A stretch of DNA of 64,000 bases from Campylobacterota bacterium (GTDB taxonomy: Bacteria > Campylobacterota > Campylobacteria > Campylobacterales > Nitratiruptoraceae). The stretch spans positions 1 to 64,000 of the forward strand of contig WGAT01000071.1 of assembly GCA_015494715.1 (NCBI GenBank), given 5' to 3'. This document shows positions 10,892 through 28,930 of the stretch, in pieces; position 1 is the first letter of the stretch; each line of letters opens with the position of its first letter. A model generated the notes under the pieces. The model saw nothing but the letters and a program-made list of their open reading frames with translations, did no database searches and was not told the DNA's origin. Both the position numbers and the translations under genes were made by a program.

Positions 10892-12250
10892 TCAGCGAAT
10901 AGGCGGCATTCCCTGCCCACCCATCTGCTTCATGAGATTTTGAATGTCTTGCATACCCTTTTTGCCGGCAAACTTCTTGGCAAATTTGGCAGCGTTGTTA
11001 AACTGCTTGAGGATTTTATTGACCTCTTGAGGAGTGAGCCCCGCCCCTTGGGCTATACGCCGCTTTCTGGAGCTGTTTTTTAAGATCAGATCGGGGTCTT
11101 TACGCTCTTTTGGCGTCATCGAATTGATCATCGCTTTGATCTTTTTGATCTCTTTGGAATTTTCTAGATCGAGATCCTTCATCGCTTTGGCCATATTGCC
11201 CATGCCCGGGATCATGGAGATGAGGCTTTTGAGGCTTCCCATCTTTTTGATGGATTCAAGCTGCTCCAAAAAATCTTCAAAATTGAATTTACCCTTGGCT
11301 ATCTTTTTACTGATCTTCTTAGCCTGTTTCTCGTCGATCACTGCCGCCGTCTTCTCGGCCAAAGACTCGATATCTCCAGCCCCCATCAGTCTGTTGGTGA
11401 TACGCTCGGGGATGAAAACCTCCAAGTCTGGCATCTTCTCGCCAGTTCCGATAAAACGCAAAGGCACGCCAATTTGATGGGCTAGACTGAGCGCTACGCC
11501 CCCTTTGCTGTCCCCGTCGAACTTGGTGAGGATCACTCCGGTGATGCCTACCTCTTCGTTGAACTTGGCCGCACTTCGCACCGCATCTTGACCGGTCAAA
11601 GAGTCTGCTACATAAAAGACCTCATCGGGACCCACCGCCTCTTTGACGCTCTTTAACTCTTCCATCAACGCTTCATCGATAGCTAGCCGTCCAGCGGTAT
11701 CGATGATAACGACATCGTAGAGCTTCTCTTTGGCGACTTGCAACGCCTCCTTTACCACTTTGACGGGATCTTGTTCGCTCTCTTCTCCAAAGAAGTCCAC
11801 TTCCACCTGTGCAGCAATCTGGCGCAGCTGCTCAACAGCCGCTAGCCGCTGCAAATCCGCAGCCACCAAAAGCACCTTTTTGCCTCTGAGCTTGAGATAG
11901 TTGGCCAGTTTTCCCGAGGTAGTGGTCTTTCCGCTTCCTTGCAGACCCGTCATCAAGACCACCGTCGGGGGCTTGGAAGCATAGACAAAGCCCTGTTTGG
12001 CTCCCGGAGCGGTCAAAATGGAGGTGAGATTGTCTTGCAAAGCTTGTAAAAAGCTCTCTCTCCCAATGCCTTCTCGTTTGGTCTGCAGCTCCACTTTTTG
12101 GAGCAGCTCTTTGACCACCTTATGATGGACATCGGACTTGAGGAGGCTCTTTTTGAGCTCGCCAAGCGCCTTTTTGAGAGCCTTTTCGTCATCTTTGAAG
12201 CGAATCTTTTTAATCGCGTTGGTGAATGAATTGGACAGCGTTTCAAACAA
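10892..12250 (-). CDS. ffh: signal recognition particle protein Ffh
   Basis: MTGLQGSGKTTTSGKLANYLK, VIIDTAGRLAID, LTKFDGDSKGG, Met-rich GMGNMAKAMK M-domain. Confidence 0.97.
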   Translation of the reverse strand: MFETLSNSFTNAIKKIRFKDDEKALKKALGELKKSLLKSDVHHKVVKELLQKVELQTKREGIGRESFLQALQDNLTSILTAPGAKQGFVYASKPPTVVLMTGLQGSGKTTTSGKLANYLKLRGKKVLLVAADLQRLAAVEQLRQIAAQVEVDFFGEESEQDPVKVVKEALQVAKEKLYDVVIIDTAGRLAIDEALMEELKSVKEAVGPDEVFYVADSLTGQDAVRSAAKFNEEVGITGVILTKFDGDSKGGVALSLAHQIGVPLRFIGTGEKMPDLEVFIPERITNRLMGAGDIESLAEKTAAVIDEKQAKKISKKIAKGKFNFEDFLEQLESIKKMGSLKSLISMIPGMGNMAKAMKDLDLENSKEIKKIKAMINSMTPKERKDPDLILKNSSRKRRIAQGAGLTPQEVNKILKQFNNAAKFAKKFAGKKGMQDIQNLMKQMGGQGMPPIR

Positions 12251-12320
12251 ATCCTACCCCTTTGACCTTTGAGTGAGCAATTTTACTTAAATGTTCATTA
12301 ATTTTAGCTAAATTTAATCT

Positions 12321-13049
12321 TTATCGAATCTCAAAATCTTTTGGCTCAGGCGCTTCGATATCATAATCTAGCAGTTTAATCCGCTTGGAGTGGAGCATCA
12401 TCCGACTCCAAGGTTTGCCCCCATAGAGGGTATCCCCCAAGATAGGATACCCGGCACGGGCCAGATGCACACGGATTTGATGGGTGCGTCCGGTCTTGAT
12501 CACCGCTTTGACCTTGGTCTTTTTGCCATGAATCTCCAAAGGCTCCACATAGGTATGCGCCGGCAAACCTTTAGACTTTGAGATATGGCTTTTGGCCTTT
12601 CCCCCTTTTTTGATTGTGCGGATTGGATAGTCGATCTCCATAGGCTCGGCTAAAATACCGTCCACCCACGCCGTATACTCTTTGTAGACCTTTTGGTTTT
12701 TGAACTCATCGATCGCTTTTTTGCGAAAATCCTTGTCCTTGACCAGCAAAAGCACCCCGCTCGTCTCTTTGTCCAGTCGATGGAGCAATTCGTAGCCGCT
12801 ATCTTTTTTGATCTCCTCGCTGGTGATGTGGGCCGGTTTGTTGATGGCTAGGATCTTCTCATCTTCGAACAAAACTTCTGGTTTTTCTACCTGCTTGACT
12901 CGAAATTTTGTCTTTGTATCGATCTCGCCTCTGGCGATCTCCACTTTGCGATCGCCTACATAGACCAGACCCCTGTCGATAAGCTCTTTTGCCTTTTTAT
13001 TGGAGATCCCCAGCTGTTGCGCTAAGACCTTATAGGCTTTATCTTTCAT
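12321..13049 (-). CDS. RluA-family pseudouridine synthase
   Basis: S4-like N-terminus; LLHRLDKETSGVLLLVKD; TGRTHQIRVHLARAGYPILGDTLYGG. Confidence 0.93.
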   Translation of the reverse strand: MKDKAYKVLAQQLGISNKKAKELIDRGLVYVGDRKVEIARGEIDTKTKFRVKQVEKPEVLFEDEKILAINKPAHITSEEIKKDSGYELLHRLDKETSGVLLLVKDKDFRKKAIDEFKNQKVYKEYTAWVDGILAEPMEIDYPIRTIKKGGKAKSHISKSKGLPAHTYVEPLEIHGKKTKVKAVIKTGRTHQIRVHLARAGYPILGDTLYGGKPWSRMMLHSKRIKLLDYDIEAPEPKDFEIR

Positions 13050-25148: not shown

Positions 25149-26783
25149 ATGGAACAGATCGCCATCTTTTTGTTTGCCATATTCGTCGCCTCTCTTTTGA
25201 ATATCGCTCTAAAAAAGATAGATATTCCTACCGCTATTGGATATATCTTTACGGGCGTCGTCGTCGCCCATTTTTTGCATATCAATGCGGACAATACCGA
25301 AATTTTAGATCATCTCTCTGAATTTGGCATCGTTTTGTTGATGTTTACTATCGGTTTGGAGTTTAGTTTTCGCGAATTGCAAATAATGAAAAAGGAGGTC
25401 TTCGTCTACGGCTCGCTCCAAGTGCTCTTAACGGGGGGGCTTTTTGCCTTAGGAGCGATATTTCTTTTTGGTTTTGAGCCAAAATCGGCCATCGTCGTAG
25501 GCTTCGCTTTAGCCCTCTCCTCCACCGCCATCGTACTCAAAATCCTTAACGAAACGGGCGATATCCACGCCTCTTATGGACGAAAAGCTTTGGGGATACT
25601 TCTTTTTCAAGATATCGCCGTCATTCCTCTTTTGCTTATGATCGATATCTTTACCAAAGAGGTACCCGTTACCTCCCTCTTGCTCCAAACTCTTTTGAAT
25701 ATGATCTTGTTTTTTGCTCTTTTGCTGCTTTTAGGGCGTTTCGTCATCGACAGATTTTTACGCTACGCTATTTTGAGTCAGAGTCAAGAGATATTTTTGC
25801 TCGCAGTCTTTTTTGTCATCCTGCTTAGTTCCGCGATCTCACACTTTTTTGGTTTCTCTTACTCTCTAGGAGCCTTTTTTGCTGGCATGCTTTTGGCCGA
25901 ATCTCATTATAAATACCAAATCGAAGCGGATTTGGCACCCTTTCGAGACCTTTTGCTTGGACTCTTTTTCTTTGCCGTTGGCAACAGGATCGATATTGGC
26001 TTTGTTTTTGGGCATATCGGTGTTATTTTTCTTCTTATGATTGGTGTGATGCTTCTTAAAGCCGCCATTCTCTACGCGGTTTTGGTATTCTTTCAAGAGC
26101 AAAGGCGTACCGCCTTTAAAACGGCTTTGGCCCTCTCTCAAGTAGGTGAATTTGCCCTAGCCCTCTTTGTACTCGCCCTTGGCAATCATCTCCTAGACGG
26201 GCAAAGCGTACAAATTCTCTCTTCCGTAGTTATCTTTTCCATGATAGCCACGCCTTTTCTACTCAAAAATCTTAAATCCTTGGCGGACAAACTCTTTCAA
26301 GAGCCGGTGCGAGAACTCAAAATCGAATCTACCGGTTTTAAAAATCATATCATCTTATGTGGATATGGCCCACTGGGGCGGGATTTGGCCAAAGATTTAA
26401 GGGAGCGAGGATTTGAGTACGTGATCATCGAGCATGATTTGAAGCTCTATGAAGAGGCTTTGGCCAACGAAGAACCTGTCTTTTTTGGCAATGCCGCCCA
26501 AAGAGCGGTGCTAGAGAGTCTCGATATCAAAAACGCCTGTGCCGTAGTCATTACTTTTCACAATCTCGAAAAGATACGCCTCGTAACCCAGTCGGTACTC
26601 GATCTAGCTCCCCAAGCCCATATCGTGGCACGGGTTCGAGACGAAGAGGAGGCTAAGGTACTGGAGGATTTAAAGATCCAAAGTCTTGTCATCACCACCC
26701 AAACACTAGCTCAGGCGATGATCCGAGAGCTCTTTTACTGCTCGCTTAACTATGTGAACTACCCTAACTTTTTGCTATCGTAA
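25149..26783 (+). CDS. Kef-type K+/H+ antiporter with TrkA-N domain
   Basis: MEQIAIFLFAIFVASLLNIALKKIDIPTAIGYIFTGVVVA; GLEFSFRELQIMKKEVF; FAGMLLAES; HIILCGYGPLGRDLAKDL; the C-terminal VNYPNFLLS is encoded by IS right-end-like DNA. Confidence 0.93.
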   Translation: MEQIAIFLFAIFVASLLNIALKKIDIPTAIGYIFTGVVVAHFLHINADNTEILDHLSEFGIVLLMFTIGLEFSFRELQIMKKEVFVYGSLQVLLTGGLFALGAIFLFGFEPKSAIVVGFALALSSTAIVLKILNETGDIHASYGRKALGILLFQDIAVIPLLLMIDIFTKEVPVTSLLLQTLLNMILFFALLLLLGRFVIDRFLRYAILSQSQEIFLLAVFFVILLSSAISHFFGFSYSLGAFFAGMLLAESHYKYQIEADLAPFRDLLLGLFFFAVGNRIDIGFVFGHIGVIFLLMIGVMLLKAAILYAVLVFFQEQRRTAFKTALALSQVGEFALALFVLALGNHLLDGQSVQILSSVVIFSMIATPFLLKNLKSLADKLFQEPVRELKIESTGFKNHIILCGYGPLGRDLAKDLRERGFEYVIIEHDLKLYEEALANEEPVFFGNAAQRAVLESLDIKNACAVVITFHNLEKIRLVTQSVLDLAPQAHIVARVRDEEEAKVLEDLKIQSLVITTQTLAQAMIRELFYCSLNYVNYPNFLLS

Positions 26784-26881
26784 ATAAGTTAGGGCTTCCT
26801 GCTTCAACGGTCGCCTTATGGCGCACCTCCACAGGCTCTACGGGCAGTCCCTGCCCTGATAGCGCTTGGTTATTGCGCTTT
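26754..26881 (-). ncRNA. Standalone TnpB-type omegaRNA-like / IS200-IS605 right-end sequence, no adjacent tnpB
   Basis: Minus strand: AGCGC..GCGCT stem, GGGCA-GGGAC-TGCCC stem, CGCC-ATAA-GGCG stem, GTTGAAGCAGGAAGCCCTAACTT-loop-AAGTTAGGGTAGTTCAC terminal hairpin. The GAAGCAGGAAGCCC...GGGTAGTTCAC pattern is the recurring IS605-type TnpB right end; frame encodes TnpB-tail-like GQGLPVEPVEVRHKATVEAGSPN. Confidence 0.65.
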
Positions 26882-26887
26882 TTGATA

Positions 26888-26917
26888 ATTATAGCACAAA
26901 CTTGCTTTGCAAGACAA
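26888..26917 (-). promoter_or_regulatory. sigma70-type promoter reading into the omegaRNA-like element
   Basis: Minus strand TTGTCT-N18-TATAAT with extended -10 TGC directly upstream of TATAAT. Confidence 0.55.
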
Positions 26918-26924
26918 AAATTCA

Positions 26925-26957
26925 TCTCCCTCTAAATCAATAAATTTTAGAGGGAGA
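26925..26957 (-). terminator. Strong hairpin downstream of mrcA, putative terminator (or IS left-end hairpin)
   Basis: 12-bp inverted repeat TCTCCCTCTAAA / TTTAGAGGGAGA with 9-nt loop, 18 bp past the mrcA stop. Confidence 0.5.
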
Positions 26958-26974
26958 ATTCTTTTTGAATTTCG

Positions 26975-28930
26975 TTAAAATAAAAGCTCCTCTTTGACCT
27001 TTTTGGGTTGTAAATCTTTGGGCGAGGGCTTGGAGATGTCGGTAAAATAGATCTTTTGACCTCCCACTATCATCTGTTGGACACCCTGTGGCACCTCAAA
27101 AGTTCGTCTTAACTCTGGATGCAAAGCGTAAATACGCTTGATCACGGCCCCTACCACCGGTGCGGCAGCACGTCCGCCAGCCTCCCCTTTTTTCAAAGGC
27201 GTATTGTCGTCTTGACCAAACCAGGTTATTACTTCGATATCGGGCGTAAAACCGCAAAACCAAGCGTCCACATAGCGGTTTGTCGTACCCGTCTTTCCAG
27301 CTACCTCCACACCTTTGACCCTTGCGGCCCGTCCCGTTCCTCTATTGACCACATCTCGCAAGATATCGATCATCAAAAAGCTCTGTTTGGGCTCAACCAA
27401 GGGATGCTCTTTGATAGAGGCCGTATAGATGGGAGATTTGTGGCTATCAAGCACTTGAGACACCAGTATTGGCTCCGTTCTCGTGCCGTAATTGGAAAAA
27501 AGGGTATAGTAGCCCGCTAGCTCCAAAGGGGAGATAGTCACGCTGCCAAGGGCCAAGGAGAGATCAGGAGGCAGGTGGGTAAACCCAAACTCTTGCAGTT
27601 TTTTATACAGCGTAGAGAGCCCTATCTCTTCCACAAGGTTGATGGTAGCAAGATTTCTAGAGTGCACCAAGGCCTCTTTGAGCGTGATTTCTCCCTCGAA
27701 ATTTTTCTCGTAATTTTTAGGCTGCCAAACTTTAACGCCGTTTTTCTCTTTAAACTCGTAGGTTCTGGCCACATCTGGAATTTTACTTATTTGGGAGTAG
27801 CCCATATTCAGCGCCACTTGATAGATAAAAGGCTTAAATGCGCTTCCGGGCTGACGTCTGGCCTGGGTTACCCTGTTAAAAGGGCTTTTTTTGTAATCAA
27901 CGCCCCCCACCATCGCCAAAATCTCGCCACTGGAGGGTTTAAGCAGTACGATCGCTCCGTTGAGCTTGGAGTAGTTGTACCCCTTTCCTCTTCGCACGAT
28001 CGCCTTATACCCCTTGCCCAACTCCTCTTTGGCAATTTTTTGATACTCTAAATCGATGGTAGTATAAATCTCGTACCCTTTGCCCTTGATATTTGGTAGC
28101 TTCTTGCCAAAACGGCGAAATATCTCATCTACGATATACGGGGCTCTATTTTGACTCAAACTCTCGTCGTATACCTTTGGCCGCTCGGCGATCGCTTTGG
28201 TAAAAGTCTCGTCGTCTATCCAGCCAAGCTCGTGCATCCTGCTTATCACCCTATCGGCTCGCTGTATGGCTTGCTCGTAATGTCTTGTGGGATCATAAAA
28301 GCTCGGAGCTCTTGGCAGCCCTACCAAAAGGGCGATCTGCTTGAGGCTAAGCTGTGACAAAGGCTTGTGAAAATAGCCCTCGGCCGCCGTTTTAACCCCA
28401 TAGTAGCCGTGACCAAAATAGATCTGATTAAAATAGCGTTCCAAAATCTCCTCTTTGGAGAGTTTCCTCTCCACAAGCAAAGCGATCAAAATCTCTTGGA
28501 GTTTTCTTTGCAGCTTTTTTTGACGGGTGAGCACCATATTTTTAACCAGCTGCTGCGTAATGGTACTTGCTCCTTCTACAAATTTTCTCGCTTTGATATC
28601 TTTCAAAAAGGCTCGGAATATGGCGTCCGGATTGACCCCGGGATGCTCGAAAAATTTTGTATCCTCAATAGCTAGCAACGCCTCGATCATATGAGCTGGA
28701 ATCTGATTGTAGGGTACATACTCTCTATTCTCCTTATCAAAAAGCTTGGCTATAAGCCGGCCGTTGCGGTCATAGATTTTGGTAGTGAGTTTGGGATGAT
28801 AGTGCACTATCTTCTCCACCTTGGGCTCTACTTTGGTGTACAAGGTCGCCAAATAGAAGACCCCGTAGGCGATCACCGCCGCAAGAAGCACGAAAATAGA
28901 TCCAAAAAAAACTTTTATAATCTTTTTCAT
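26975..28930 (-). CDS. mrcA: penicillin-binding protein 1A (transglycosylase/transpeptidase)
   Basis: AIEDTKFFEHPGVNPDAIFRAFLKDI; EGASTITQQLVKN; RQPGSAFKPFIYQVAL; VAGKTGTTNRYVDAWFCGFTP. Confidence 0.96.
   Translation of the reverse strand: MKKIIKVFFGSIFVLLAAVIAYGVFYLATLYTKVEPKVEKIVHYHPKLTTKIYDRNGRLIAKLFDKENREYVPYNQIPAHMIEALLAIEDTKFFEHPGVNPDAIFRAFLKDIKARKFVEGASTITQQLVKNMVLTRQKKLQRKLQEILIALLVERKLSKEEILERYFNQIYFGHGYYGVKTAAEGYFHKPLSQLSLKQIALLVGLPRAPSFYDPTRHYEQAIQRADRVISRMHELGWIDDETFTKAIAERPKVYDESLSQNRAPYIVDEIFRRFGKKLPNIKGKGYEIYTTIDLEYQKIAKEELGKGYKAIVRRGKGYNYSKLNGAIVLLKPSSGEILAMVGGVDYKKSPFNRVTQARRQPGSAFKPFIYQVALNMGYSQISKIPDVARTYEFKEKNGVKVWQPKNYEKNFEGEITLKEALVHSRNLATINLVEEIGLSTLYKKLQEFGFTHLPPDLSLALGSVTISPLELAGYYTLFSNYGTRTEPILVSQVLDSHKSPIYTASIKEHPLVEPKQSFLMIDILRDVVNRGTGRAARVKGVEVAGKTGTTNRYVDAWFCGFTPDIEVITWFGQDDNTPLKKGEAGGRAAAPVVGAVIKRIYALHPELRRTFEVPQGVQQMIVGGQKIYFTDISKPSPKDLQPKKVKEELLF

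Follow-up and report, generated by a model that had tools for sequence, protein, structure and literature searches.

Between a Kef-type antiporter gene (PF00999 and PF02254) and mrcA, the gene of a class A penicillin-binding protein (PF00912 and PF00905), the Nitratiruptor genome studied here carries a predicted promoter followed by an omegaRNA-like sequence, and the locus raises the question of what such a unit is when no nuclease gene accompanies it. The window, by which we mean the whole stretch of DNA analysed, comprises 64,000 nucleotides (contig WGAT01000071.1, positions 1 to 64,000). A sequence-only reading had offered two answers, either an orphan or domesticated guide RNA used in trans by a TnpB encoded elsewhere, or a decayed or non-autonomous IS end that kept or gained a promoter. 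The letters, positions and spacings it reported were all correct when the sequence was re-checked. The promoter, TTGTCT-N18-TATAAT with a TG ahead of its -10, is present, the region folds into the described hairpins (AGCGC/GCGCT, GGGCA/TGCCC and CGCC/GGCG), and the last base of the right end GAAGCAGGAAGCCCTAACTT...AAGTTAGGGTAGTTCAC is 26754, with ATAGTTAAGCGAGCAGTAAA as the 20 nt beyond it (26753-26734). The absence of tnpA and tnpB between the two genes also agreed with our check of open reading frames and domains. The anatomy proposed for the right half was accurate, but the left-end hairpin and the TTTAA target beyond it had been missed. Since both are present, the unit is a complete element and not a right end alone (Table 1).

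Table 1. Parts of the element between the antiporter gene and mrcA, with positions in the window.
Feature	Position	Strand	Basis
TTTAA insertion target; its TAA is the mrcA stop codon	26975..26979	-	Precedes 6/6 copies in the genome; end of the mrcA open reading frame
Complete non-autonomous IS200/IS605 element (PATE/MITE type), 221 bp, free of protein genes	26754..26974	-	Block common to five near-identical copies whose flanks are unrelated
Left-end subterminal hairpin CTCCCTCTAAA...TTTAGAGGGAG	26926..26956	-	Sequence; same left end beside tnpA in own-genome C37 and in G015 C58
Promoter (predicted): -35 TTGTCT in left-end sequence, -10 TATAAT resembling the tnpB promoter	26888..26917	-	
H1, the 5' hairpin with loop AATAACCAA; standalone copies only	26861..26879	-	Covariation; pairing disrupted in tnpB-bearing copies
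H2 hairpin GGGCAG-GGA-CTGCCC; opens the scaffold that the tnpB 3' end also has	26842..26856	-	
Central omegaRNA scaffold, RAGATH-18-like	26796..26835	-	Sub-threshold match to Rfam RF03064
Right-end hairpin CCCTAACT...AGTTAGGG	26762..26794	-	Five pairs with two-sided changes between copies
Right terminus GTTCAC	26754..26759	-	Identity between copies stops there
Implied guide AUAGUUAAGCGAGCAGUAAA, host flank at the 3' end of the antiporter gene, antisense	26734..26753	-	First 20 nt past the right end

The promoter matches the consensus at 10 of 12 positions, and the full pattern was found once in the 64 kb window against 0.03 expected from shuffled sequences. By its sequence the promoter is a strong one, and from its position transcription would start just before H1.

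The genome contains six copies of the element, each at a different site (contig C71, which is that of the window, and contigs C22, C92, C3, C101 and C70). Five of them span 221 bp and are 92-100% identical, and the sixth, on C70, is 95% identical over the matching 174 nt. Each copy follows TTTAA and has GTTCAC as its right terminus (GTGCAC in one), the flanks differ among all six, and the guide is different for every copy. A multicopy block of 221 bp is a feature far beyond chance. The element has both subterminal-hairpin ends of a resident IS605 element, the left end being common with tnpA-linked left ends and the right end being of the tnpB type. The right-end hairpin is of one type in five copies, and that of C70 is the type of the tnpB-bearing copies. 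The element thus lacks a transposase gene and has dispersed copies at a fixed short target (TTTAA in 6/6), as is characteristic of non-autonomous IS200/IS605 elements, and its copy number implies that TnpA would move it in trans. The earlier notion of a decayed IS end is not supported, the element being intact, multicopy, target-flanked and non-autonomous. The label of an orphan or domesticated guide RNA fares no better, because the element is multicopy and its guide is whatever flanks each insertion, so that the antisense orientation toward the antiporter gene is incidental. The plasmid and phage collections searched gave no match to the element. Related left ends (85-87%) at G000:C82:16927-16973 and C35:442-488 of the same genome belong to a further element type; the one on C82 leads into TTGACA-like and TATAAT-like sequence where the contig ends.

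The antiporter-mrcA junction is uninterrupted and without insert in nine of the 15 other genomes of the genus, and at these unoccupied junctions the two convergent genes nearly touch. A full-length tnpB at this site, raised earlier as a sign of recent deletion, was seen in none of the relatives. The nearest relative, G004 (JALWCE010000143), is 91-92% identical and carries 103 bp at the junction (L074:4616-4718). This remnant starts at the same antiporter position and carries a right end, ATGAACCACCCCGC (plus strand), that belongs to another TnpB-type element, and the target at the junction thus seems to have been used twice. A 1.1 kb insert at the junction in G003 was considered as a related element and rejected, as it is an unrelated gene. 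Another omegaRNA-like right end (GGTTGGAACGACCCGAA...) occurs in two copies in G014 (G014:C3:28679-28792 and G014:C3:1-109), with no tnpB beside them within the stretch examined; the remnant in G004 bears the same motif. A repeat, TTAATACCGCCTTTGCTCGCCATCAATGGC, is found in the antiporter-mrcA gap of G004 (L074) and downstream of the C3 copy (L019), and is perhaps another dispersed element.

Pieces of the presumable parent are present in the same genome. Contig C37 stops inside an element that has the same left end and next to it, in the opposite sense, the 3' part of tnpA, and contigs C69 and C50 start at the same base inside tnpB and continue into the same scaffold and a right end. No intact cognate tnpB was found in the genome, only the 3' parts at the contig starts; the resident tnpB and tnpA are each partial because the contigs end inside them. 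These pieces look like the two halves of a repeated autonomous element that was broken by the assembly. A TnpB-family gene is therefore present in this genome, the absence of which had been named as an argument against a guide RNA. Longer pieces were recovered from the sister genome G015, where contig C58 holds the left end with tnpA, C60 and C211 hold the left end with the 5' part of tnpB, and C121 holds the 3' part of tnpB with the right end. The parent pieces encode Y1_Tnp, OrfB_IS605 and Cas12f1-like TNB domains, and catalytic motifs are borne by both tnpB and tnpA of G015, the tnpB pieces retaining the RuvC-type motifs GIDMG, IENLS and DRDINAS.

The scaffold of the standalone element is of the same kind as the 3' end of the resident tnpB with its right end, and in all copies the flank that follows the right terminus lies directly in the position of a guide, as in TnpB omegaRNAs (reRNAs). 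The standalone cores of this genome that were compared are 94-100% identical to the tnpB core of C69, and that of genome G104 shows 89% identity to the tnpB core of the same genome, a 36-nt insert being common to both; the standalone cores of G015 and G014 fit less well to tnpB cores. The proposal of a TnpB omegaRNA-type scaffold is thereby borne out, and its use in trans by a TnpB encoded elsewhere is plausible, since tnpB 3' parts with the same scaffold occur on C69 and C50. The central core scored 26.0 bits (E=0.0036) against RAGATH-18 (RF03064), below the gathering score of 44.9, which makes it a related core only and not a member of that family. At gathering scores, the Rfam search of the window gave no match.

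We then asked how far such units extend beyond this genome with a covariance model, R1, which was built from nine standalone sequences and matches both the standalone and the tnpB-bearing cores. It matched 14 of 400 genomes of the order, and loci without tnpB upstream were among the copies in G000 (the genome of the window), G015, G014, G104 and G216. The matches in G383, G224, G196, G156, G278, G043, G056 and G125 were rejected as standalone because they follow tnpB genes or remnants. In Nitratiruptor as well as in a second family of the order, the standalone loci carry a promoter-like sequence and the 5' hairpin H1, the loop of which is close to GATARCCAA. The corresponding positions of tnpB-bearing copies are tnpB codons, and the pairs are broken there. 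Among nine H1 variants, collected by eye, 91% of cells are paired and 15 two-sided changes occur, compared with 5.8 in shuffles and 0-2 in slid versions of the hairpin. In eight Nitratiruptor copies, 7 of 59 sites vary in the promoter and H1 versus 19 of 54 in the left end (p=0.004), although the lower variation of promoter and scaffold could come from recent spread or from recombination with tnpB copies and not from selection. The element gives the impression of more than a remnant left by random deletion. On its own the loop motif is common, for instance as the codons A-I-A-K; when a stem of at least five pairs was required, 10 of 319 occurrences were left, namely six standalone loci, two tnpB copies and two others. 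A viral contig with the H1 pattern (L228) was taken as chance, since the pattern lies in what seems to be protein-coding sequence; R1 scores it weakly as well, at 24 bits. A second kind of short element, with a left end, promoter-like sequence and a GGTTCAC right end, lies in G104 (L039; G104:C36, near 12124-12400) and is apparently the standalone guide-RNA element of another TnpB type.

The likely origin of this module is a series of deletions that joined a left end, the tnpB promoter, a tnpB-internal hairpin, the tnpB 3' end and the right end. The -35 of the promoter is located in left-end sequence, and its -10 side can be aligned with the bases that immediately precede tnpB in G015; in this alignment 1 of 1000 shuffles scored as high for one copy, and 38 and 7 of 1000 for two others; for the copies of G104 and G216 the similarity to the tnpB upstream region is weak. 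Outside the standalone loci, the loop motif with a stem of at least eight pairs was found in just the two tnpB genes of G015 (L105 and L101), as the codons V/I-A-I-A-K-Q-Y, and H1 was probably taken from inside tnpB. In these two genes the hairpin is in frame, with 8-9 pairs and the loop GATAGCCAA. More distant tnpB genes retain GATAACCAA at the hairpin position despite encoding the amino acids E-I-T-N. H1 may derive from a conserved RNA element within the tnpB reading frame.

What, then, could the unit do? ISDra2 TnpB binds an RNA made of the tnpB 3' end and the right end, with about 16 nt of flank as the guide, and cuts targets adjoining the insertion motif; cutting of the empty donor joint has been proposed to restore the transposon (PMC8612924). 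By analogy, the element is probably a satellite of the resident transposon, borrowing TnpA to move and TnpB for its own retention. TnpA from the resident element would act in trans on both ends, the promoter would drive an RNA of about 130 nt that extends into the flank by a further 16-20 nt, and the resident TnpB would bind this standalone guide RNA. Excision would re-form TTTAA next to the flank, TTTAA-ATAGTTAAGCGAGCAG at the site of the window, and thereby create a target for TnpB, of which the TTTAA at 26975..26979 would be the TAM at the empty site. A cut there would be repaired from a sister copy that still carries the element, as proposed for ISDra2 TnpB (PMC8612924). In the genome, the guide flank is preceded by TTCAC and not by TTTAA, so that this target is expected only on excision. 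Transcription, TnpB loading and cutting of the target are all putative steps that we infer from the arrangement of the sequences. A wider claim, which we put forward tentatively, is that these units form a long-lived satellite lineage consisting of a guide-RNA gene only, which would keep its promoter and 5' hairpin across families, match its scaffold to the local TnpB and use the resident TnpA and TnpB.

The strongest competitor is an inert internal-deletion derivative, mobilised by TnpA via its two ends and carrying the promoter and omegaRNA scaffold as functionless passengers. Intact ends and spread copies are what it predicts, no RNA function was claimed for a known PATE-like IS605 element that retains a tnpB 3' remnant (PMC7290912), and the copy on contig C151 of G015 has lost most of the left end and the promoter. 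We nevertheless consider it rather unlikely, because a promoter and a covarying hairpin are common to standalone copies of two bacterial families and show low variation. Far less probable is a local antisense RNA or terminator, by which the insertion would alter antiporter and mrcA expression without involvement of TnpB: the promoter does read into the antiporter 3' end, the antiporter frame continues into the right end for nine codons and the left-end hairpin sits immediately past the mrcA stop, but five other loci have the identical anatomy and the scan listed no intrinsic terminator at the left-end hairpin. TldR-like guide RNAs are defined by a conserved single locus with a fixed host target, and the least probable reading of all, a domesticated guide RNA with which a nuclease-dead TnpB would regulate the antiporter or a different host gene, has the guide antisense to the antiporter 3' end in its favour but is opposed by six copies with unrelated guides, by the absence of the same guide at a fixed locus in other species, by an own-genome search that gave no second target beyond one near match with 3 mismatches (the reversed control pattern gave 3 matches), and by the RuvC-type motifs kept in the G015 tnpB pieces.

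Several known systems come close to the element. Trans-acting omegaRNAs of IscB, whose scaffold is different, and PATEs of TnpB elements are reportedly guide RNA loci without an adjacent nuclease gene, as Altae-Tran 2021 and Meers 2023 are said to describe. The PATE-like IS605 element of Halanaerobium hydrogeniformans consists of 28 nt of left end, no tnpA, the final 58 nt of tnpB and a complete right end (PMC7290912). It is likewise a protein-free IS605 element that retains the omegaRNA region, but it is a single copy for which no promoter or 5' hairpin was described, whereas the Nitratiruptor element has six copies, a promoter and a covarying 5' hairpin that standalone copies of different families have in common. 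The ISDra2 reRNA shares the combination of tnpB 3' end and right end, the flank guide and the target beside the insertion motif; it is, however, part of the tnpB transcript and uses TTGAT, whereas the Nitratiruptor element is a separate unit with its own predicted promoter and TTTAA. RAGATH-18 is the guide RNA of IS607 TnpBs, and in a survey 64% adjoin an IS607 TnpB and about a third do not (PMC11061315). The conserved core CCUGUGGAG...CGUUGAAGCAGGAA is common to RAGATH-18 and the Nitratiruptor scaffold, although the latter belongs to an IS200/IS605 element with a Y1 tnpA and scores below the cut-off. The element is a variant of a known non-autonomous kind and not a new system, and the module of promoter and H1 is the addition. 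In the literature searched, outside which the key trans-omegaRNA and PATE papers lie, we found no account of an element of this kind that is multicopy and promoter-bearing and has a 5' hairpin conserved in two families.

The standalone RNA would be a compact scaffold with a natural 5' end, unlike the omegaRNAs embedded in tnpB, and the six copies with six natural guides offer a direct test for TnpB action in trans. Provided that the RNA is produced and loaded, a single resident TnpB would serve many tiny elements in trans, and RNA-guided retention could be parasitised in the way that transposition is.
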